This document shows, one piece after another, positions 6,779 to 19,650 of a stretch of 64,000 nucleotides of DNA. The stretch is from Bacteroidota bacterium (GTDB taxonomy: Bacteria; Bacteroidota; Bacteroidia; B-17B0; Aurantibacillaceae), in contig JAFDYI010000027.1 in NCBI GenBank assembly GCA_018267475.1, positions 1 through 64,000 on the forward strand. Direction: 5' to 3'. The position numbers and the translations under genes were made by a program. The notes below the pieces were generated by a model that saw nothing but the letters and a program-made list of their open reading frames with translations, made no database searches and was not told where the DNA came from. The number at the start of each line of letters is the position of its first letter. Positions within the stretch are counted from its first letter, which is position 1.

Positions 6779-8761
6779 TCAATGTACTAAATGACCGCTA
6801 AAAAAGTTAAGGGTATTGCCTGACGCAGGAGACATGCTTGTAGTTGAATTTTGCCAAACTCCTACAGAAACGGTATGTCCTGAAGCTAAAAACATATCTA
6901 CACTAATTTGATTGCCTATGTGTACACCTGCCGTAGCAAAAGAAACTATGGGTATCCAACTTGTTTTATAAGTACCTGTGTTTATCATAATTTGTAACTG
7001 ATAATCAAAAATTGGTGTCGGAATTGAATTTTGCAGTGTTATTATGGCATCAAAATGGTATAAGCCGGCTACAGGAGCGGTAAAAGTGGTGCCATTAAAA
7101 ACACCGGCAGGAGATTGAGGGTAATCAGAGCCTGAAAAAGTAACAGTGGTTAAACTTGCGTTAGGAACAGAGGTAGTGCTTCCGCTGTATGAAAAATACA
7201 CGGGGTTTGACCAAAAAGCCACGCCGATGCTATTAGAAGCAGTAAGCACAGAGCCTATTGTTGGTGTGCCACCACTTATGGTGATAGAATTAGTCTGAAT
7301 ACCCGAGCCACCCGAAAAAACAGCCGATGGTCCGGAGCTGGAAGCGGTGCTTACATTAAGAGCAGGTAGCGAGTTGCCATTAGAGGTATTATTAAACACA
7401 GCTGCACTGGAGTTAACGCCGGAGTTAACTACGTTTACACCGACAGGGTTAGAAGATGCTATATCTAACATAGCCGCCGGGCTTTGGTTATTTATGCCAA
7501 TAGGCCCGCTGCTGGCTATGCGTATGCGTTCCGTATTATTGGTTGTTAAAACAAAATCTTTTGCATCTTGTGTGCCTATGTAGTTATTATTGGCTGCAGA
7601 GCCTAAAGCTGAACTAGAAGGAGTTGTGCCCGCGTTTCCACCTGTAGTCCAAGCCAAAGAAGATGCTGCTGCGGGCGACCAAGCGGTACCATTATATTGC
7701 AATATTTGGTTGCTTGTAGGTGTTACGGTAGAGATGGGCACTGTTTGCAAGCCTTTTACGGTAAAAACTCCGGTATTGCTTAGACTCACATCACCACCGG
7801 CAGGTACGCGGGTGGCTACACCCGATGCGTTACCTACAAACAAATAGCCGCTGGGCATGGTGTTGTCTAATTTATTGTTAAAGGTATTCCAGTCTGTTCC
7901 CGATAAAAACCCATTAACGCCCGCTGATGCTTGCGGTATGGCCAAAGGGTTGCCGCTTAATCCAGTACCGGTAAGGGGAGCTGTAGCCGATACCGTGCTG
8001 CTAGGTAGGGTAACGCTGTTTCCGTTAGAGATAAAGAGGGTATTGCTTGATAAAGATAAGGTTTGTGGAGGAATGGTTACCGAGTTGCTGCCTATAATGC
8101 TAAGGGTGTTGCTGTTAATGCTTAATTGGGGATTGGCTGCTGCAGGTGCGCTTACGGTGTAGTTAGGATACGTACCGGTAACAGTAGCCGAACCTGCACT
8201 GTTAAGGTTTACTACTTGGTCGGGCTTGGTATTGCTAATGATACCCGAAGCAATAGAGATTCCGGTACCGGCTGTATAAGTAGGAGGAGGGGGAAGTGTA
8301 ACGCTGTTTCCGCCGGAGATGCTTAATGTGTTTCCGGCAATAGATAGCGACTGAGTAGATACTGTACCCGACGTGCCGGAGCTTGCCGCATAAAGTGCAT
8401 AAGGCACGCTTTGTAAAACAGTAGTGCCTATGGTGGTATAAGAACTACCTCCACTGGGGTCTATACCTATTTGAATGGACATATTGCCGCCCGCCCAGTT
8501 TATCGTACTAAACTGCGAAGTGTTAATAGAGCCTATTACATGATTGTATAAACCAAACATGTCGGTGGTAAGGGTGGTAGTTTCGTTAAAAACAGAACTT
8601 CCCGATTGAAGTATAGTAAACTTAATACCTATGCTGGTGTTGGCTAACGCATTGCCGGCTGTATTGCGGGCTACACCTTGGTAGTTAATGCCCTGCGGTA
8701 CTTGAGCCTGAGCCAGCATGCTTACAAAAAAAGCAAAGGCAATACATAATTTTTTTTTCAT
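6779..8761 (-). CDS. Tail-fibre-like secreted protein with C-terminal C1q-like domain
   Basis: 660 residues, low-complexity and rich in Ser, Thr, Asn and Gly, with signal peptide ending MLAQAQ. The N-terminal domain (about 22-125: VPQGINYQGVARNTAGNAL, later VPYALYA) is common in Bacteroidota fibre-like surface proteins. The central stem (about 130-520) has repeats of the type NTLSISGGNSVTLP, the phrase GVNGFLSGTDWNTFNNK and TNNTERIRI, all typical of phage tail-fibre-like stems. The end (about 522-660) reads as a C1q/TNF-like globular head: FTAPVAGLYHFDA and the final NFFSGHLVH match the C1q entry and last strand. Such heads trimerise. No T9SS sorting domain is visible at the C-terminus, so its export route is open. 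It is the first gene of the four-gene unit, with a -7 element 20 bp upstream. Confidence 0.8.
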   Translation of the reverse strand: MKKKLCIAFAFFVSMLAQAQVPQGINYQGVARNTAGNALANTSIGIKFTILQSGSSVFNETTTLTTDMFGLYNHVIGSINTSQFSTINWAGGNMSIQIGIDPSGGSSYTTIGTTVLQSVPYALYAASSGTSGTVSTQSLSIAGNTLSISGGNSVTLPPPPTYTAGTGISIASGIISNTKPDQVVNLNSAGSATVTGTYPNYTVSAPAAANPQLSINSNTLSIIGSNSVTIPPQTLSLSSNTLFISNGNSVTLPSSTVSATAPLTGTGLSGNPLAIPQASAGVNGFLSGTDWNTFNNKLDNTMPSGYLFVGNASGVATRVPAGGDVSLSNTGVFTVKGLQTVPISTVTPTSNQILQYNGTAWSPAAASSLAWTTGGNAGTTPSSSALGSAANNNYIGTQDAKDFVLTTNNTERIRIASSGPIGINNQSPAAMLDIASSNPVGVNVVNSGVNSSAAVFNNTSNGNSLPALNVSTASSSGPSAVFSGGSGIQTNSITISGGTPTIGSVLTASNSIGVAFWSNPVYFSYSGSTTSVPNASLTTVTFSGSDYPQSPAGVFNGTTFTAPVAGLYHFDAIITLQNSIPTPIFDYQLQIMINTGTYKTSWIPIVSFATAGVHIGNQISVDMFLASGHTVSVGVWQNSTTSMSPASGNTLNFFSGHLVH

Positions 8762-8865: not shown

Positions 8866-9813
8866 TTACTTATTTTCCAACTGCATATCTGATGCAGGGG
8901 TACTTTGGCGAGGTGCTTTTTTAAAGCGTAAGCCTATCATCACCTCGTGTGTACCGCTATTGTATTTGCGTATGGGGGTAATGCTGTAATCGTACGAATA
9001 GCCAAACAAAAGCCAATTTTTATACATATAACCAAACAAAACACTTACCGCATCGTTGGTGCGGAAATTAGCTCCAATCCATACCGTGTTTTTGTAAATA
9101 CATTGCAAACCGATATCCACTTGCAGCGGCACCGGTGCTACGTATTTTACTAATAAGCCGGGTTGTAGCACAAAATTTTCTCCTAAATTAATTTTATAGG
9201 TAGCCAAGCCGTAAAAATGTGGAGCTAAACGACTTTGGTTGGTAGTTTGATCTACAAAAAATTTTAATTTAGCTTGATACAACTGCGGAAAGCCTATGCC
9301 TATAGATAGTTTTTTGCTGTAAAAATAAATGCCCGCGCCCACATCGGGCACAATAGTTGATTGATAATTAGCAGACAATACCGGGTCGCCGGGGTCGTGT
9401 GTTGTTATTTTAGATCCATCTACAGCGTATTGTACAATTCCTGCGTTTAAACCTAAAGATAATTTATATTTTGCATTTAATTTGATATGATAGGCATACA
9501 CCAAATCAATACCTGTGCGGCGTGTAGGCCCCACAATATCGGTATAAATGTTTCCACCCATACCCATCTTATAGTTTTTGAAAGGTCCTTGCAAAGAAAG
9601 CATATAGGTACGGGGTGCATCTGGAATGCCTACCCATTGATATCGGTTGTTTGATTTGGCTTCCCAATAATCGCTTCTTCCGGCAATAGCAGGATTCATC
9701 ACAAAATCATTGAGCATATACTGACTATATTGGGGCAACTGTTGTGCCATTAGGTTTACTCCCTGCACCGCAAGCAAAGCACACAAAAAAGATGAAATAT
9801 ATTTCTGTTTCAT
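8866..9813 (-). CDS. PorP/SprF family type IX secretion outer membrane protein
   Basis: 315 residues with signal peptide ending GVNLMAQ, then the family opening QLPQYSQYMLNDFVMNPAIAGRSDYW and barrel-type strands (GMGGNIYTDIVGPTRRTGIDLVYAY, FGYSYDYSITPI). The C-terminus ends EVMIGLRFKKA followed by a short polar tail. It begins 7 bp after the stop of the giant SprB-repeat gene, the same order as sprB-sprF, so it is the probable dedicated partner for secretion or surface attachment of that adhesin. It is clearly paralogous to the protein at 5071-6015, though much diverged. Confidence 0.93.
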   Translation of the reverse strand: MKQKYISSFLCALLAVQGVNLMAQQLPQYSQYMLNDFVMNPAIAGRSDYWEAKSNNRYQWVGIPDAPRTYMLSLQGPFKNYKMGMGGNIYTDIVGPTRRTGIDLVYAYHIKLNAKYKLSLGLNAGIVQYAVDGSKITTHDPGDPVLSANYQSTIVPDVGAGIYFYSKKLSIGIGFPQLYQAKLKFFVDQTTNQSRLAPHFYGLATYKINLGENFVLQPGLLVKYVAPVPLQVDIGLQCIYKNTVWIGANFRTNDAVSVLFGYMYKNWLLFGYSYDYSITPIRKYNSGTHEVMIGLRFKKAPRQSTPASDMQLENK

Positions 9814-9820
9814 AACTTGC

Positions 9821-12800
9821 TTATCTTAAAATGGTTAAAGGTCCTGCGTAATGGTCGGGATACTTAGGATCGTTAAGTCGTATGATGTAATAGTAGGTAC
9901 CCACCGGCACCGGAGAGCCTTTATAAGTTCCATTCCAGGGCACGTAATTTCCTTTGCTGTAAAACAGTTGTTCGCCCCATCGGTTATACACTTCTATTTC
10001 TACATTTGGAAAAAGACTGATGTAATCCAACAACCAGATATCGTTATGCCCATCTCCGTTAGGAGTAAACCCGGTAGGGATAGTGAAGGGCGGAAGCACG
10101 GTTACAATCATACTATCCATGCCCACACAGCCAAAAGCATTGGTTACATATACCGAGTACGTAGTAGTAATGGTAGGTGAGGCCACCGGATTAGCTACCG
10201 TTGTATCTGATAGTCCATAAGGGGGGCGCCATATTGTAGAGCCTCCGCCTGGGTTGGTAGGGGTGCCGCCTATATTTACGCTTTGTCCCGTCATTATGGA
10301 TTGGCTTGGCCCGGCATTAGCTCCTGCATTAGGGCTAATAGATACTAGCACGGTATCGCTGTTCGTGCAACCTCTGTAAGTGGCTATTAAAACATACTGG
10401 GTGCTGGCGCTTGGGTTTACGGTTATGGTTAATGAATTAGCCGGCGGAATAAGGGTTCCGGAAATATCTTGCCAGTTATAGGTAGGCGATCCCGTTACCG
10501 TTCCTGTTAATGTAATAGAGCCACTGGTGCACATAACCGTATCTCTACCTGCATTTACCGTAATGCTTACAGTTGAAGCTACTACAAAGTTGGTATCTAA
10601 TGTACAGCCGTGCGTGTCTGTTACCGTAAGCGTATAATGCCCCGGCAGGATATTAGTAAGATTAGGCGTAGCGGCGCCATTACTCCAAGAGTAGGTGTAA
10701 GAAGGCACCCCTCCTGTTACTGTGGTTGTAATAGCTCCATTGGGCGCATTGTTACAAGTAGCGCTTATGGTATCCCCTGCAAGCGTTATTTTAGGAGGGT
10801 TTTTTAGTGTATCTGTTTGATTGGCCGAACAACCGTTGGCATCGGTTACTACCAAGGAATACACACCCGCTGCTAGTCCGCTTGGGTTTTGCCCGGAAGC
10901 GGTGCTAGGTGCCCAGCTATAGGTGTAAACAGGGGTTCCTCCGGATACTACGGCGTTAAAGGCGCCGTTTGCGTTGTTATTACATTTGATAGGGGTAGTG
11001 GTAGCTAAACTTAAAATCAAACGACTAGGAGGGGTGATTGTGAGCGTTTTTGTTTGCACACAGCCTGCCGCATCGCCTACGGCTACCAAATAATTGGTAT
11101 TGGCACATAAATTACTTACAGCAGGGCTTGTTCCTAAAGCGCTCGGACTCCAACTATAGCTGTATGCGGGCGTTCCTCCGGAAGCTGTTACCGTAGCGGA
11201 GCCGTTGCACATACCATAACAACTTACCCCTGTAGAGGCTATCGTAAGTGCGGGGCCGTTCGTGTTGTTTAATCCTATGGTAAGTGTGTTGGTGCAAGAG
11301 GTTCCCGCATCGGTTACCTGTACGGTATAAATGCCTCCACACAAACTACCTACGGTAGGTGTAGTGGCGCTGGCGGCATTAGCACTCCATAAGTAAGTGT
11401 AAGGTCCTATGCCTCCTGAAACATTTGTAGAGATACTGCCGTTGCACACGCCACAAGAAGGGGTTGAAATAATGGCATTGGCATTTAGCAGGGCGGGCTG
11501 CGCAATATCTACCGATTGCGTAGCAATACAGCCCAGCGCATCGGCTACCTGAATAAAATATATGTTGGCCGATAAACCGCCTATGGTAGGAGTATGAACA
11601 GCAGGCGTTACCGGTGTCCAGCTATAAACATAAGGGGTAGTGCCTCCTGTGGCGGTGGCGGTGGCCGAACCGTTGCTTAAGCCGTTGCAAGTAACATTGC
11701 TTGCGTTTACCGTAATAGAGGGCGAAGCAATACTGCTTACCGGTATTTGTACTAGCTGCGAGCAACCTTTGCCATCTGTTACATCTACTTGATACACGCC
11801 GGCGCACACATTATTTATTTGATTTGTGTTATTTACGGGGGCGGTAGTCCAGGTGTAAGTATAAGGGGTAGCTCCTCCGGTAGGTGCTAAGCTAATGGTT
11901 CCGTTACATTGTGCACAATTAGGCGGTGTAATAGTAGGGTTTGGGTTTATTAGGAACGGATTATTTATAAGGTTTACGTTTTGTGAAACGCTACAGCCAT
12001 TAGCATCGGCTACGTTTACCGCGTAATTACCGGCGCACAAGCTGCCTAAGGTATCGGCATGTGTAGCACCCGGCGACCAAGTGTATGTGTAAGGCATAGT
12101 ACCTCCGCTGGGTATAGCTGTAAGCACCCCGTTGCACACACTACTACAACTAGGTAGCTGCGTGTTGCTTAATGATACAGCAAGCGCTGTTGGAGCAGTT
12201 ACCGTAAATGTTTGTACCGAGGCGCAACCATTATTATCGGTTACGGTTACTTGATATGTTCCCGCGCCTAAATTTACATCAGGGTTGGCCGTGCTGCCGT
12301 TACTCCAGCTAGTAGTAACAGGAGGGGCTCCTCCTAAAATAGTAGCGGTTGCCGAGCCGTTGCTTAACCCACTGCAAGTGGGGTTTCCTACACTAATGGT
12401 TACCAACGGGGCGTTGCTGCTGTTCATGTTTATAGCTACCGTTTGGCTGCAAGCTCCTGAGGTTACCACTAAGGTATAAATGCCGGCACACAAATTGTTC
12501 TGTGCCGTACTTCCGGTTGAAACACCATTCCAAGTATAAGAGTAGCTGCCTGTGCCCCCGGTGGCCGTATAAGTTACAGAGCCATCGCACTTACCGCATT
12601 GAGTGGGTATCACATTTTTACTGATAACAATAGGAGAAGGAGGTGGAGCTATACTTACCGACTGAGTGGTTACGCAATTAGCAGCATCTTTTACTTGCAC
12701 ATAATACGTACCGGCGCATAAATTGTTGATAGATGGAGAAGCTGATGAAGGAGATACCCAATTATAGGAATAAGGAGCTGTTCCGCCCGACGCGGTTACA

Positions 12801-15800
12801 CTGGCGGTAGCATTGCAAACACCCGAGCACGTGAGTCCGGTAGAGGTAATTGCTGCGGTAGGAGAAGTACTATTATTTACTGGAATTAAGTAAGAAGAAA
12901 TACAACCCATTACGTCGGCAATATTTACTTGATACAGGCCGGCACAGGCATTGTTAATCGAGGCGGTGTTTGCTGTTGTACTCCATGTATAGGTGTAAGC
13001 TCCTCCGTTGCCTCCGGTGGGCGCTAGATTTATTATCCCATTACACATACCGCAGGCAGGTTGCGTAACTGAATAGTTAGGGCTAACGGAAGTGCTGGGT
13101 GCTGTAATAGTGGCTATCTGGCTTACCTTACAACCCATAGTATCTGTAATAGTGGCGGTATAAGTGCCGGCGCATAAGTTAGTAGCGGCCGATCCCGCTT
13201 GCCCGTTACTCCATGCTATAAGATAAGGTGGGGCACCTCCAATAATGTTGGATAAAGTAGCTGTAGCATTGCAAACTCCATAGCACATGTTGTTTGTAGA
13301 AGCCAGGCTAGAAGTAATAAACGTACTTCCGTTTATGGTATAATTAAAACAGTTGGAGCAACCCAGCGAATCTTTAATGCAAACCGTATGGGTACCCATC
13401 GCTAAATTATTAAAAACATTGCTAAAAGAATATGAGGCTCCATCAAGAGAATACATATACCCTGCCGCGTAAGGAGTACCCCCCATACCATGGCTGGTAA
13501 TAGAACCATTATTTATTCCGGCACAAGTAGCATTTACAATAGTAGGATTATCCATTATTTTAGGCGGTGCTGCAATGCTAAATGTAGTCAAGGTTTGGCA
13601 ACTCAAGCCATCTGTTACTGTAGAGATATAGTTGGGCGGACTTCCACACAAGCCGCTTACAGTGGTCGTACTTACGGGAGGTATCGTGTTCCAATTGTAA
13701 GAATAAGGCGGGTTATTGGGCGGATGAATAACGGTTACCGTAGCCGATCCATTACAAGAACCAAAGCATGTTACATTATCGGTAGTAAGAGTTACTAAGG
13801 GGCCGTTAGAGTTGGTTATGCCTATCTGAAACGTATCTTTGCAATTGTTTGTATTGCTAAGCACAACCGTATAAATGCCGGCTGATAAATTAGTACAAGC
13901 CACATTGGTTCCACAAGCTATAGGCGATAACCAATTCACTGTTAAAGCACCGGAAGGAGTAACCGTATTAATAGTAATAGATCCGTTGCTCTGCCCGCAG
14001 GTAGCAGCCGTTTGCGATTCGTTTAATACGATAGCCGGCGCACTGTTTACGGTAGTAGATACGGTGTCCCTACAGTTTTTACTATCTACTACAATTAAGG
14101 TGTAAGTACCCGGGCACAAGCCGGAAGCCGTAGGGTTGTTTCCCGGAGAGGGGGCGATGCCTTGCCATTGATAGTTATACCCTCCGTTCCCTCCAGATGG
14201 AGTAGCGGTAATGCTTCCGTTGCAAGAGCCACTACACAGCGGACTAGTTGCCACGGCATTAGCATGCATTTTAGCCGAATCTTTTAGCACAAACGTTGTA
14301 GAATTAGTACATCCTTTGCTATCCGTAACGCTTACTATGTAAGGCTGCGCGGTTAAACTATGAGTGGAAGCACAACCCACGCATATATTCGGGCTCCATG
14401 AAACCGTATAGGTGGGGGTACCACCTGAGGGAGTTACCGATGCGGAACCATTAGCATAGCCAAAACATGTAGGACTAGTATATGTTACGCTTACTGAAAC
14501 AGAAGGTGGAGCGCTAATAGTAAAATGCGTCGTATCGGTGCAATGATTGGTGTCTTTTACAATCACAAAATAATTACCGGGACATAGCGCGCTTACGCTT
14601 GTTGTAGTAGGGTTGCCCGGTGTATTCCAGTTGTAGGTGAAACCTCCTCCAGATCCACCGGTGGGCGCTACACTAGCCGTGCCTGTACAACCGGTACTGC
14701 AATTATTATCTTGCTTTACAAAATTAGGTGCAATGGGCGTAGCCGGGTTTATGGTTACTACCGTTTGAATAGAACAACTGTGCGCATCAGCAACAGTTAA
14801 TGTATAATTGCCGGAACAAAGCCCTGCTACATTCGGACTATTTGAAATAATACTTCCTGATGAATTTGTCCACGTATAGGTATAAGCTGGAAAACCACCC
14901 GAAGCAGCTGCCTGCGCTGTACCATTACACAAGCCCGAGCACAATACATTTGTTTTTGTAATAGAAACCGCTACCGTTGTAGGTGCATTGATATTGTATA
15001 TGTAGGCAGCAGTACACCCTGATGCGTCGGTAATCACAACGGTATGTGTGCCCGAGGCTAAACCGGTAATAGGATTTGTAGTAGCGGTTCCATCTACCGC
15101 ATAAGAATAAGGGCTTGTACCCCCTGAAGGACTAAGTGTTATAGATCCCGTATTACCCGAACTGCAAGCACTTGGTGTAACGGTGGCATTATCCACAATT
15201 TTATTTGGCTCTGTAATGCTTACCGTGGCTATGCTTACACAACCTAAAGCATCTACTACTTTTACAGGGTAGATATCAGGGGCGCTTACTGGCCCACCGC
15301 ATAAAGTATTGTCTGTTTGCGGCGAAGGCCCACTGGGAGTGCCGGTAGTCCAAATAACTGTTACCGGAGGGTTTGCGCTCGTACCGCTTACTGTAGCACT
15401 TCCATTGCAAACGCCAAAACAACTGGCATTATTATTTATTACCACGTTGGTAACGGGGCCGTTAGGATCGTGTACCCCTATTGTAACAGTAGTATCACAA
15501 CCTTTTGAATCACTAATAGTAGCGGTATAAATACCCGCTGCCAAGCCCGTAAGCGGGTTCGCGTGGCTTCCGGTATTCCAGGTAACTGTATAAGAGGGCG
15601 TTCCACCGGAGATAGCTAAAGAAATGCTGCCACTGTTGCTTAAACAAGTAGAAGGCGAAGTAACCGTAGGCGCTATCGTGTATTGAGGCGAAGAACTTAC
15701 CGTAATAGGATTGTTGGTAGTACAACCTCTGCTATCTACCACGGTGGCCGTATAAGAGCCCGGACAAAGATTAGTTGGGTTGGGGCCTATTACTCCATTA

Positions 15801-18800
15801 TTACTCCAGCTATATGTGTAAGGGGCCGTACCTCCCGATGCAACAACCGCAGCGCTGCCATTACAACTTCCAAAACAAGTGGCGTTTACTACTGATGTGG
15901 TAGCGGTAAGTGCCGGTGGGTTCAGTATGGTAATGCTGTCTTTGCTGGCACAACCTGTTTGGTCGGTTACGAATACAATGTAGGTTCCGGGGCATAGATT
16001 ATTAGCCGTACACGAAAGTGTGTTGCTGCAGGCCGGCACCGGCACTGGGTTTGGAGTCCAAGAGAATGTATAAGGTGCTGATCCCCCCGATGCTGTTGCG
16101 TTGGCGCTGCCATCACAAGCATTGTGGCATGATACGGAAAGAGAACTAGCTAAGATATTGACATTGATAATGACCTGAACATTAAATACCGTGGAGGCTA
16201 AACAACCATTGGCATCTTTTACATACAACGTATGCGTGCCCACACACAAGGTATTGATAGTTGTGGCGCTTGAAAAAGGCCCGCCTGCTGCGTCCCAACT
16301 AAATTGATAGGGAGCAGTACCGCCTGTAGCGCCGGCTGTAGCCGTGCCGTTGCAGATGTTTAAACAACTTTTAGTAACATTGCTTACTGAAGCAGATAAG
16401 GCAGTTGGTTGAGTAATATTATACACGATAGCCGTTGCGATACAACCCTTGCTATCTTTTACTTGAAGGGTATGCGTGCCGGTACATAAACCCGATGTAG
16501 AAGCGGTTGCAGAGTAAATGCCTCCGTCCCAACTATATTGGTAAGGAGCGGTACCTCCGGCAGCCATTGCCACCGCTGAACCATTGCAAGAGCCTGCGCA
16601 GGTAACATTAGTAGGTGTTACACTAGCTGTTATAGGAGTGGGGTTCACTAAAGTTACTGTTTGCGAAGCCAAGCAGTTATTAGCATCGTTTACGTTTAAT
16701 ACATAAGTGCCCGCACATAAATTATTAGGAGTTAGGGTATTAGGTGCCATAGCCGGATTCCAAATGAAGGTATAAGTAGGGAAAGTTCCTCCGGTAATAG
16801 CAGCGCTAATAGAACCATCGCAAGCTCCGGAGCAATTAGGGTTAATGGATGTTGTCGCAATAACAATAGGAGCCGGGTTGGCAATACTTACGGTAGCAGT
16901 AGTAGTACAAAGGCTTGAGTCGGTTACGGTTACGGAATAATTACCCGAGCACATATTGCTTTGACTGGGTGCTGTAGGTGATACCGGGTTAGCCCCCGTG
17001 CCGCTCCAGCTATAGATATAAGTAGGCGTTCCGCCCGTTACACTGGTATTAATTTGTGCATTACACTGGTTTGCGCACACCAAAGGGGTAGCACTTATGT
17101 TGATTATTAAAGGGTTTGGCTTGGTAAAGGTTACCGCTTTGGTTACTGAGCAATTTTTTGAATCTGTTATGGTAACGGTGCATGTGGTATTGCCACACTG
17201 GCCGGAAAGCGTAGGGGTATTGTTACCCGGCGCACAAGACCAACTGTAGGTATATCCGGGCACTCCACCACTGGGCGTAACGGTAGCCGAAGCATTACAT
17301 AGGGTAGCGCAACTGGCATTTTTTTGTGCCACTACAGCCGTTATTTGCGGGGGTGAAGTAAGGGTAGCCGATACTGCTTTCACACAATTATTACTATCTT
17401 TTACGGTAATGGAATACACTCCGGCGCCTAAGCCTGAAACGCAAGCTGTAGCCGGCTCAGCAGGCGACCACGAATATGTGTATGTAGCACCGGTACCTCC
17501 ACTAGGGCTTACACAAATTTGCCCATCAGTTGAACCAAAGCAAGCGGGGTTTGTAAAGGTAACAGTTGCATTTAATACAGGTGGGTTATTCAATGTTGCT
17601 TTTACGGTATCGTGACAACCTCTACTATCGGTAAGCACTACCGAATAAGTACCAAAAGGTAAATTGGAATAGGTTGATGAAGTGGCTGTTCCACTTATGG
17701 TTCCTACGCCAGAGGGTGCCCATACAAAGCCGGTGTAAAGAGGGGTGCCCCCACTTACAGCATCTGTAATACTTCCGCTTGCTTGGCCGTTGCACTTAGG
17801 TTGCACAACCGTTACTGTGTGCGTTATAGGTGGTGGCGAAGTAAGAGTAAAGGTTTCTGAAAGAACACAACCATGTGCGTCTTTTATTACGCATGAATAG
17901 GTGCCTGCACAAAGCGATGAGTAGGTGGAACTGTTAGCGGAACCAGATATCACGCCTCCCGTAGGTGTCCACGAAAAAGTGTAAGGATTGGTGCCTCCCG
18001 AAACGCCGGTAACTGAAACAGAACCGTTGCATACATTAGCGCAACTTATAGAAGTAGTTGTTACCGGATTTATAGTAGCCGCTAAAGCCGGGGGTGCTGC
18101 CGGAACGGTACCGGTATACACAGCAGTACAACCATTTTTGTCGGTAACAGTACAGGTGTGTACAGAGCCTGCACACAAATTGTAAAGAGTGTCATTAGTA
18201 TTACCGCTATCCCAAGTAGTAGTGTATTTTATGCCATTGCTTTGCACCGCACCAAAAGGGGTACCGCCCGTAGGGGCCACCCACATCTGCCCATTGCAAG
18301 CGCCAAAGCACAAGGGTGCTTTTACCCCTCCGTTAGGAGAAATAACAGGCGGTTGATTAATGGTTACTTTTACGGAAGGCTGCATCGTACAACCAGCTGC
18401 ATCGGTAACATTAATAGTGTAAGTGCCTGCGCACAGGCTGTTCGTTGTTTGCGTTATTCCTGAAGGAACGTTATTGAGTGTGAAAGTGGTTAAAGAAGGG
18501 GTTGTCCATACAACGGTATAAGGAGGATGGCTGCCCGCTATAATATAGCTAGAAGACCCGTTACATAAACCATTACAAGTTGCCGGAGTAGTAGAAGGGG
18601 GAGGGATAGAGATAGGTGAAGTAGCCGGAACATTTACTCCTGAAAGAAAAGACGTGGTAGAGTCTCCACTAGAAGTAGTACAGGTAATCAACACATTATA
18701 ACTATTGGCGCATAAACCAACGCAAGTAAAAGTAGTAGCACTGGTAGTATAGGTTTGTGGGGTGGAGCTAATCCATTGAATGGTATAAGGAGGTGTTCCG

Positions 18801-19621
18801 TTAATTCCTGTAACGGTAGCTTGCCCATTGCAGCCTCCGTTGCAGGTAGGGCTTTGGATATTCACAATGGTAGTAGTGGACATGGTGCGCAAACTGCCGC
18901 TGTTTTGTGTCGTTATATTAGAGAAATGATGCGTATTAAGAGCGTAATCAAAAAAAAGTTTGGAAGTGCCTGTGCCTTGTATTTGTTGGTTATTGAGGCT
19001 TGTTACGCGATGTTGTATCCATAGCATCGTGTTGTTTAAAAGTATTTGTGCACCTGAATTACAAATTAAATTACCAAGAAAAAAAGAAGTGTTATTAGCG
19101 GCTATTGTAGCTGCATTAACAAATACTGTTTTGTTTTTTTCGGTATTAAAATTAGAGGATACATTCCAGCTTCCACCGCCATCGAAATATACATTTCCGC
19201 TAAAGATGAAAGAACCGAGTTTTAATATGTTGCTTTGTTCCGACGATTGAAACCAAACATCGCCCAAGAAATTATTTTTTACAGATAGATTAAACGAGGC
19301 GCTCCCTGCAATGCTTAGTCTTTCATTTTGTGTGCCTTGTAAGGTAATGGGCTGTGTATTATTAGAAAAGGTAATGTTGTGGCAATTTGCCCCGCCGATA
19401 ATGCTTACTATGGAAGATGAGGTACCTGATTTTTCATCAAAAAAAACATCGTCGTTGAGGGTAGGTGTTTTCGCTCCCCCTAGGCCGCCGCTAGAAAAAC
19501 TCCAGTGCGCTGCGTCGTTAAAATGCCCAGAACCTCCTACCCAATACAAACTTTGTGCCCTCACGCAAAAAACAGGGGCGAGCAGAAACAGGAACCATAC
19601 ACTACGTAAAAATAGCCTCAT
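9821..19621 (-). CDS. Giant SprB-repeat adhesin with T9SS type B sorting domain
   Basis: 3266 residues from the ATG at 19621 (signal peptide MRLFLRSVWFLFLLAPVFCVRAQ; the frame extends to a TTG at 19630). The N-terminal domain (about 25-250) opens with YWVGGSGHFNDAAHWSFSSGG, a common opening for large Bacteroidota surface proteins. I count 35 SprB-type repeats of about 79 residues (about 250-3010), each of the form C-x-G-x-C-N-G, GGTxPYxYxW, LCAGTYxxxVxDxxGC. Two PKD/Ig-like segments follow, then the gliding-associated C-terminal domain (about 3175-3266: FTIPTGFTPNGDGHNDIW, NRWGEQLF, VGTYYYIIRL). SprB in Flavobacterium johnsoniae is a mobile cell-surface adhesin that drives gliding; this protein is about half that length. 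A PorP/SprF partner follows after 7 bp. The repeats are cysteine-rich, with a strictly paired inner cysteine pair. Whether the cell glides cannot be told from this window. Confidence 0.93.
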   Translation of the reverse strand: MRLFLRSVWFLFLLAPVFCVRAQSLYWVGGSGHFNDAAHWSFSSGGLGGAKTPTLNDDVFFDEKSGTSSSIVSIIGGANCHNITFSNNTQPITLQGTQNERLSIAGSASFNLSVKNNFLGDVWFQSSEQSNILKLGSFIFSGNVYFDGGGSWNVSSNFNTEKNKTVFVNAATIAANNTSFFLGNLICNSGAQILLNNTMLWIQHRVTSLNNQQIQGTGTSKLFFDYALNTHHFSNITTQNSGSLRTMSTTTIVNIQSPTCNGGCNGQATVTGINGTPPYTIQWISSTPQTYTTSATTFTCVGLCANSYNVLITCTTSSGDSTTSFLSGVNVPATSPISIPPPSTTPATCNGLCNGSSSYIIAGSHPPYTVVWTTPSLTTFTLNNVPSGITQTTNSLCAGTYTINVTDAAGCTMQPSVKVTINQPPVISPNGGVKAPLCFGACNGQMWVAPTGGTPFGAVQSNGIKYTTTWDSGNTNDTLYNLCAGSVHTCTVTDKNGCTAVYTGTVPAAPPALAATINPVTTTSISCANVCNGSVSVTGVSGGTNPYTFSWTPTGGVISGSANSSTYSSLCAGTYSCVIKDAHGCVLSETFTLTSPPPITHTVTVVQPKCNGQASGSITDAVSGGTPLYTGFVWAPSGVGTISGTATSSTYSNLPFGTYSVVLTDSRGCHDTVKATLNNPPVLNATVTFTNPACFGSTDGQICVSPSGGTGATYTYSWSPAEPATACVSGLGAGVYSITVKDSNNCVKAVSATLTSPPQITAVVAQKNASCATLCNASATVTPSGGVPGYTYSWSCAPGNNTPTLSGQCGNTTCTVTITDSKNCSVTKAVTFTKPNPLIINISATPLVCANQCNAQINTSVTGGTPTYIYSWSGTGANPVSPTAPSQSNMCSGNYSVTVTDSSLCTTTATVSIANPAPIVIATTSINPNCSGACDGSISAAITGGTFPTYTFIWNPAMAPNTLTPNNLCAGTYVLNVNDANNCLASQTVTLVNPTPITASVTPTNVTCAGSCNGSAVAMAAGGTAPYQYSWDGGIYSATASTSGLCTGTHTLQVKDSKGCIATAIVYNITQPTALSASVSNVTKSCLNICNGTATAGATGGTAPYQFSWDAAGGPFSSATTINTLCVGTHTLYVKDANGCLASTVFNVQVIINVNILASSLSVSCHNACDGSANATASGGSAPYTFSWTPNPVPVPACSNTLSCTANNLCPGTYIVFVTDQTGCASKDSITILNPPALTATTSVVNATCFGSCNGSAAVVASGGTAPYTYSWSNNGVIGPNPTNLCPGSYTATVVDSRGCTTNNPITVSSSPQYTIAPTVTSPSTCLSNSGSISLAISGGTPSYTVTWNTGSHANPLTGLAAGIYTATISDSKGCDTTVTIGVHDPNGPVTNVVINNNASCFGVCNGSATVSGTSANPPVTVIWTTGTPSGPSPQTDNTLCGGPVSAPDIYPVKVVDALGCVSIATVSITEPNKIVDNATVTPSACSSGNTGSITLSPSGGTSPYSYAVDGTATTNPITGLASGTHTVVITDASGCTAAYIYNINAPTTVAVSITKTNVLCSGLCNGTAQAAASGGFPAYTYTWTNSSGSIISNSPNVAGLCSGNYTLTVADAHSCSIQTVVTINPATPIAPNFVKQDNNCSTGCTGTASVAPTGGSGGGFTYNWNTPGNPTTTSVSALCPGNYFVIVKDTNHCTDTTHFTISAPPSVSVSVTYTSPTCFGYANGSASVTPSGGTPTYTVSWSPNICVGCASTHSLTAQPYIVSVTDSKGCTNSTTFVLKDSAKMHANAVATSPLCSGSCNGSITATPSGGNGGYNYQWQGIAPSPGNNPTASGLCPGTYTLIVVDSKNCRDTVSTTVNSAPAIVLNESQTAATCGQSNGSITINTVTPSGALTVNWLSPIACGTNVACTNLSAGIYTVVLSNTNNCKDTFQIGITNSNGPLVTLTTDNVTCFGSCNGSATVTVIHPPNNPPYSYNWNTIPPVSTTTVSGLCGSPPNYISTVTDGLSCQTLTTFSIAAPPKIMDNPTIVNATCAGINNGSITSHGMGGTPYAAGYMYSLDGASYSFSNVFNNLAMGTHTVCIKDSLGCSNCFNYTINGSTFITSSLASTNNMCYGVCNATATLSNIIGGAPPYLIAWSNGQAGSAATNLCAGTYTATITDTMGCKVSQIATITAPSTSVSPNYSVTQPACGMCNGIINLAPTGGNGGAYTYTWSTTANTASINNACAGLYQVNIADVMGCISSYLIPVNNSTSPTAAITSTGLTCSGVCNATASVTASGGTAPYSYNWVSPSSASPSINNLCAGTYYVQVKDAANCVTTQSVSIAPPPSPIVISKNVIPTQCGKCDGSVTYTATGGTGSYSYTWNGVSTGSTAQNNLCAGIYTLVVTSGACSQTVAINMNSSNAPLVTISVGNPTCSGLSNGSATATILGGAPPVTTSWSNGSTANPDVNLGAGTYQVTVTDNNGCASVQTFTVTAPTALAVSLSNTQLPSCSSVCNGVLTAIPSGGTMPYTYTWSPGATHADTLGSLCAGNYAVNVADANGCSVSQNVNLINNPFLINPNPTITPPNCAQCNGTISLAPTGGATPYTYTWTTAPVNNTNQINNVCAGVYQVDVTDGKGCSQLVQIPVSSIASPSITVNASNVTCNGLSNGSATATATGGTTPYVYSWTPVTPAVHTPTIGGLSANIYFIQVADALGCIATQSVDIAQPALLNANAIISTPSCGVCNGSISTNVSGGIGPYTYLWSANAASATTPTVGSLCGGIYTVQVTDAGTSCTNTLTIGLNNTNGPALTIASTGVSCYGMCNGSATVTASGGTPAYSYSWSPSALGTSPAVSNLCANTNYLVAVGDAAGCVQTKTLTITPPSRLILSLATTTPIKCNNNANGAFNAVVSGGTPVYTYSWAPSTASGQNPSGLAAGVYSLVVTDANGCSANQTDTLKNPPKITLAGDTISATCNNAPNGAITTTVTGGVPSYTYSWSNGAATPNLTNILPGHYTLTVTDTHGCTLDTNFVVASTVSITVNAGRDTVMCTSGSITLTGTVTGSPTYNWQDISGTLIPPANSLTITVNPSASTQYVLIATYRGCTNSDTVLVSISPNAGANAGPSQSIMTGQSVNIGGTPTNPGGGSTIWRPPYGLSDTTVANPVASPTITTTYSVYVTNAFGCVGMDSMIVTVLPPFTIPTGFTPNGDGHNDIWLLDYISLFPNVEIEVYNRWGEQLFYSKGNYVPWNGTYKGSPVPVGTYYYIIRLNDPKYPDHYAGPLTILR
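10590..18870 (-). repeat. Array of about 35 diverged SprB-type coding repeats
   Basis: The central 8.3 kb of the adhesin gene consists of about 35 units averaging about 237 bp (79 codons). Units are diverged at DNA level and align best as protein. Each begins near a C-x-G-x-C-N-G motif and ends near D-x-x-G-C. 24 units have four framework cysteines and 11 have only the outer two (units 5, 6, 14, 16, 19, 21, 23, 28, 31, 34 and 35 counted from the N-terminus). Confidence 0.9.
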
Positions 19622-19650
19622 ATAGAACAATTCATTGTGTCAATTATCCA

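Follow-up and report, generated by a model that had tools for sequence, protein, structure and literature searches.

Predicted disulfide staples between neighbouring SprB repeats of a giant T9SS surface protein, with an optional second bond inside the repeat

We propose that the SprB repeats of a giant surface protein from a Bacteroidota bacterium are seven-strand Ig-like domains, that a disulfide staples neighbouring domains at every junction, and that an optional second disulfide lies within the domain. We put the probability of this reading at about 0.85. The framework cysteines of a repeat are C1 and C2 (the two cysteines of C-x-G-x-C), C3 (of L-C-A-G) and C4 (of D-x-x-G-C). C1 of repeat n would bond to C4 of repeat n+1, and C2 to C3 of its own repeat. 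The original prediction held that the inner cysteines form a bond inside the repeat, which our analysis bears out, and that the outer cysteines C1 and C4 of one repeat are also partners, which it does not.

The protein is encoded on the minus strand of the window, by which we mean the whole stretch of 64,000 nucleotides that was analysed. The features that we refer to are as follows.

9821–19630, minus strand: open reading frame of the giant T9SS type B surface protein with 35 SprB repeats, 3269 aa (PF13573; PF13585; TIGR04131)
10604–18844, minus strand: the SprB array of 35 repeats, counted from the C1 codon of repeat 1 (aa 263; 18842–18844) through the C4 codon of repeat 35 (aa 3009; 10604–10606)
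18389–18844, minus strand: first predicted inter-repeat staple, C1 of repeat 1 (18842–18844) with C4 of repeat 2 (18389–18391)
10367–10756, minus strand: predicted staple of C1 of repeat 35 (10754–10756) with the C4-like cysteine of domain 36 (10367–10369), which is the invariant C134 of 25 orthologues
10337–10567, minus strand (boundaries approximate): domain 36, Ig-like but non-SprB, with a C1-like cysteine in VMC (10529–10531) and a C4-like cysteine in YRGC (10367–10369)
10097–10336, minus strand (boundaries approximate): domain 37, the last Ig-like domain, with a C4-like cysteine in NAFGC (10127–10129) and no C1
9863–10084, minus strand: CHU_C / T9SS type B sorting domain, aa 3183–3256
8866–9813, minus strand: PorP/SprF-family carrier (PF11751, 2.6e-79), directly downstream of the giant gene

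The 3269-residue protein matches the repeat family PF13573 at 616 bits (E=2e-190, 28 stretches, gathering score exceeded), and its C-terminus matches PF13585 (CHU_C, 1.6e-19) and TIGR04131 (2.4e-17). A signal-like N-terminus is followed by the 35 repeats, the two Ig-like domains and the CHU_C sorting domain. The same genome (G000; 2.76 Mb, 99% complete) encodes a T9SS translocon with SprA (TIGR04189, 2291 bits) and GldK (TIGR03525, 560 bits), and from these matches the protein is predicted to be a SprB-repeat type B substrate secreted by the T9SS. Downstream of the carrier, a 660-aa protein (6779–8761) has a weak match to NF053851, the mosaic adhesive trimer N-terminal domain, at 28 bits and under the cut-off.

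The partners of the outer cysteines can be read from their losses. We aligned repeats from Bacteroidota genomes with a profile of the window repeats, in a survey that covers class-wide orthologues as partial loci only. Nearly every surveyed repeat carries C1 and C4, which makes the two look superficially like a pair and speaks for a model that keeps both disulfides inside one repeat, C1–C4 as the outer and C2–C3 as the inner bond. However, they are not lost as a pair. Among 2382 adjacent repeat pairs, no repeat has lost both its own C1 and its own C4 (0.67 expected), whereas in 23 pairs, from nine proteins, the first repeat lacks C1 and the second lacks C4 (0.39 expected; Fisher p = 3e-43). 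Just one of C1(n) and C4(n+1) is missing in 15 adjacent pairs. L116 and L071, which belong to a single genus, account for 13 of the 23 joint losses, and the independent events number about eight. The control pairing of C1(n) with C4(n+2) gave a single joint loss (0.33 expected). Pairing C4(n) with C1(n+1) gave a slight excess, 6 against 0.9, which we tentatively attribute to L116 and L071 with their alternating C1-less and C4-less repeats. In the arrays of these two proteins such repeats stand in adjacent pairs, so staples would form at some junctions and be missing from others.

The ends of the arrays agree with a register of n and n+1. Repeat 1 of the window has C1 but lacks C4 (it holds five cysteines in all), so the earlier statement that outer cysteines occur in every repeat stands except at this position. 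In first domains of orthologues, the D-x-x-G motif is followed by a residue other than Cys where C4 would stand, as in FVFDAIGF and INVFDGIGN. At the opposite end, domain 36 carries two such cysteines, one C1-like and one C4-like, and domain 37 a single C4-like cysteine. Across 25 aligned C-termini the cysteines C55, C80, C134 and C214 (numbering of alignment A3) are invariant and the last domain is without C1; these cysteines pair without leftovers only in the n/n+1 register. The pattern extends to 43 CHU_C-ending proteins with a C4-like cysteine just before CHU_C: in 39 of them the last Ig-like domain has C4 without a C1 of its own, as judged by a gap of 66–110 residues (an own C1 is expected to leave a gap of 45–62, and none of the 43 has one). 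Twenty-three of these 39 domains belong to proteins outside the four-Cys giants. In the window protein, the last staple would join the C4-like cysteine of domain 37 to C1 of domain 36. First domains with C1 and without C4, and last domains with C4 and without C1, are at odds with a bond between C1 and C4 of one repeat.

Coevolution and the predicted structure place the two cysteines in the same relation. In a mean-field analysis of 2541 tandem pairs, the coupling of C1(n) with C4(n+1) ranks 14 of 11,325 and is the highest of all inter-repeat pairs, whereas that of C1 with C4 in the same repeat is weak (ranks 397 and 1111). An AlphaFold2 model of repeats 31–34 (99 sequences; pLDDT 94.5, pTM 0.68) has C1 and C2 in the A–B loop, C3 right after strand E, and C4 at the F–G turn right before strand G. 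The A–B and E–F loops of an Ig/Fn3-type sandwich lie at its C-terminal pole and the F–G turn at its N-terminal pole; by this model, C1 and C4 of one repeat are predicted to sit at opposite poles. The couplings match the modelled fold, with antiparallel B–E, C–F and F–G ladders and a parallel A–G pairing that crosses from one unit to the next, and they place the loop with C1 beside the residues that follow strand G. A second AlphaFold2 model, of the C-terminus, is of moderate quality (pLDDT 79) and was used only to place the C-terminal cysteines beside strand G. Taken together, the joint losses, the array ends, the inter-repeat coupling and the opposite predicted poles lead us to infer that C1(n) bonds to C4(n+1) and staples adjacent repeats, and they make two disulfides closed within one repeat highly unlikely. 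The staple corrects what would be a natural assumption, that the two conserved cysteines of a SprB repeat bond each other.

An n/n+1 register could in principle also arise between chains. If C1–C4 bonds cross-linked adjacent molecules within a multi-strand fibre, staggered chains could produce it, and adhesins in general can bundle. In the predicted topology, however, C1(n) and C4(n+1) lie together at one and the same junction within a chain, and the couplings around that junction fit a single chain; we regard bonds between molecules as very improbable.

What would staples along a single chain do? Each repeat would be a seven-strand Ig-like domain. C1 of domain n, which lies in the A–B loop at the C-terminal pole, would bond to C4 of domain n+1, which lies in the F–G turn at the N-terminal pole. 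Of 2092 segments from C4(n) to C1(n+1), which comprise strand G, the linker and strand A, about 95% are 25–27 residues long (mean 25.6, sd 1.3), and the core from C1 to C4 varies more (mean 52.4, sd 3.3). The shortest covalent path would then run from C1(n) to C4(n+1), through 25 residues to C1(n+2), and would skip the domain cores. A residue spans about 0.36 nm, and two folded domains an estimated 7–8 nm by textbook dimensions. One 25-residue segment for every two repeats would measure about 9 nm against those 7–8 nm, leaving little stretch even if domains unfold. Because the path bypasses the cores, the fibre should barely lengthen under load; we think that the stapled fibre is probably almost inextensible. 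C2, at the end of the A–B loop, and C3, in the E–F loop, would form the second, intra-domain disulfide at the same pole and near the staple. That inner bond would tie the staple-bearing A–B loop to the E–F loop of its own domain and stiffen the junction further.

The inner pair is present or absent as a unit. When tabulated over the 35 window repeats, C2 and C3 are both present in 24, both absent in 11 and never found singly, as had been reported; the repeats without them are exactly those first listed (5, 6, 14, 16, 19, 21, 23, 28, 31, 34 and 35). With margins fixed and the two cysteines independent, the chance of this split is 1/C(35,11) = 2.4e-9. The co-occurrence also holds in other genomes: among about 2,360 surveyed repeats that carry C1 and C4, the inner cysteines are both there in 930 and both absent in 1422, with only six apparent exceptions (four with C2 alone and two with C3 alone, one of the six being a different domain type). 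SprB repeats elsewhere thus mostly carry the outer cysteines only (1422 of 2358), as had been stated. Three of the four repeats with C2 alone are first repeats (of L264, L261 and L172); they were considered as single-cysteine losses and rejected: C3 is kept there as ICGC or ICTC and is misaligned, and it is C4 that is missing.

Could common descent account for the covariation, with two old repeat lineages and no bond? The repeats of one array do share ancestry, and many positions keep their type. As kinship within an array weakens any simple count, we also counted switches between close relatives elsewhere, in 577 disjoint nearest-neighbour repeat pairs of at least 60% identity with the Cys columns masked. 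Type switched in 26 pairs, and a difference in a single cysteine was seen in none; switches of this kind occur, for instance, between orthologous repeats of L188 and L269, whose remaining residues are 75–81% identical. Moreover, comparison with a collinear orthologue from another genus revealed six switched positions, at each of which both cysteines changed together. With at least 26 independent switches among close relatives, always of both cysteines, we give descent alone very little credence. The C2–C3 coupling within a repeat also ranks first of all 11,325. The survey, the concerted switches and this top coevolution rank make an intra-repeat C2–C3 disulfide well supported from sequence comparison, in the window and across Bacteroidota; the pair would be gained and lost as a unit because the bond forms within one repeat.

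The cysteine census fits the two kinds of bond. The array and the next two domains contain 136 cysteines (36 C1, 36 C4, 48 inner and 16 extra), which in the n/n+1 register would give 36 staples and 24 inner bonds, with 16 extras. The label of two-cysteine repeats is accurate in that C2 and C3 are absent, but repeats 6, 19, 21 and 23 each hold two other cysteines. Twos are well over-represented among the extra cysteines (33 observed against 6 by a Poisson expectation, and 13 against 2). In repeat 6 (17384–17542) there is a substitute pair: one cysteine lies in ICV, nine residues on from C1, and the other in ACV, a short way ahead of LxAG; the same type of pair is found in orthologues and in repeats of other genomes, as a second kind of optional pair. 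Repeats 3 and 4 (17867–18310) have one extra cysteine each, in predicted strand F, and these are the sole odd leftovers in the array. In repeats 25, 27, 30 and 32, C-x2-C replaces C-x3-C; together with 14 and 21 these repeats make up a sub-family in which one residue is missing between C1 and C2 and the linker that comes next is rich in N and S. By eye, repeat blocks 14–16 and 21–23 resemble copies of each other. A role of the cysteines as metal ligands or free thiols, conceivable since grouped cysteines can bind metals, is scarcely credible for a protein predicted to be secreted by the T9SS whose cysteines are lost in twos and whose extras also come in twos, as disulfides would show.

The order of two- and four-cysteine repeats is partly conserved. 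Of the collinear positions, 24 of 30 match L153 in type (p = 0.007) and 21 of 24 match L266 (p = 0.001), each from another genus, and the orthologue patterns suggest a two-cysteine type throughout for the final SprB repeat, the one next to the C-terminal domains. The alternation had been offered as a possible mark of recent recombination; as the pattern is partly conserved between genera, we reject this cause. Selection on local stiffness is plausible, as a conjecture.

Among known systems, the closest in composition is SprB of Flavobacterium johnsoniae, which shares the PF13573 repeats, the nature of a giant CHU_C (type B) T9SS substrate and an adjacent PorP/SprF-family carrier. The window protein differs from this type in that four-cysteine repeats are common. 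The carriers differ as well. Gliding of F. johnsoniae requires a Cys-x-Cys C-tail on SprF, through which SprF is bonded to GldK (PMC12635249), but the C-tail of the window carrier (8866–9813) has no Cys-x-Cys motif and no cysteine at all, and a role in gliding is therefore only putative. Nor is there such a tail in any of the carriers that adjoin 24 orthologous giants. Carriers with a CxC C-tail adjoin L067, L080, L111 and L120, and all four of these giants are of the two-cysteine type only; carrier type and adhesin type seem to go together. A third carrier group, beside two-cysteine giants, ends in SCPKF. The contig scan yielded 11 relatives of the window carrier, all from metagenome-assembled Bacteroidota.

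The closest structural relative is GhpA of Aureispira sp. CCB-QB1. It accounts for the top seven PDB fold matches of the four-repeat model (9flp, 9fls, 9flu, 9flv, 9flw, 9flx and 9g8b; Z 11.5–12.2) and is also the best PDB sequence match in a profile search. By the fold matches, an Ig-like tandem fold is common to both proteins. The aligned stretch of GhpA contains C1-like and C4-like cysteines, and GhpA is the larger protein (5898 aa against 3269 aa). A phmmer search of the whole protein against the PDB had mainly matched phage decoration proteins; profile and fold searches gave GhpA instead. Our search of freely readable literature turned up no paper that deals with disulfides of SprB repeats.

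Long tandem-domain fibres that resist force at their domain junctions are also formed by RTX adhesins and SasG. These giant tandem beta-sandwich adhesins are stiffened without disulfides, by calcium or by cooperative interfaces (PMC7493085, PMC5380327, PMC4458895); in RTX adhesins, Ca2+ sits in the linkers (PMC7493085, PMC5380327). By contrast, the window protein would have a covalent staple at each junction.

SprB-type adhesins are long thin fibres that are dragged along the cell surface or anchor cells to surfaces, and that must bear load without unfolding. The staple, if true, would account for the near-invariant 25-residue spacing, would leave the fibre unable to unfold as titin does, and would make the role of each cysteine testable. 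The arrays of L116 and L071 may serve as a natural experiment on fibre flexibility. We consider it likely that all Bacteroidota giants with SprB repeats, gliding SprB included, are stapled chains whose domain cores lie off the force path and which are practically inextensible, with four-cysteine repeats adding a second lock at partly conserved positions.
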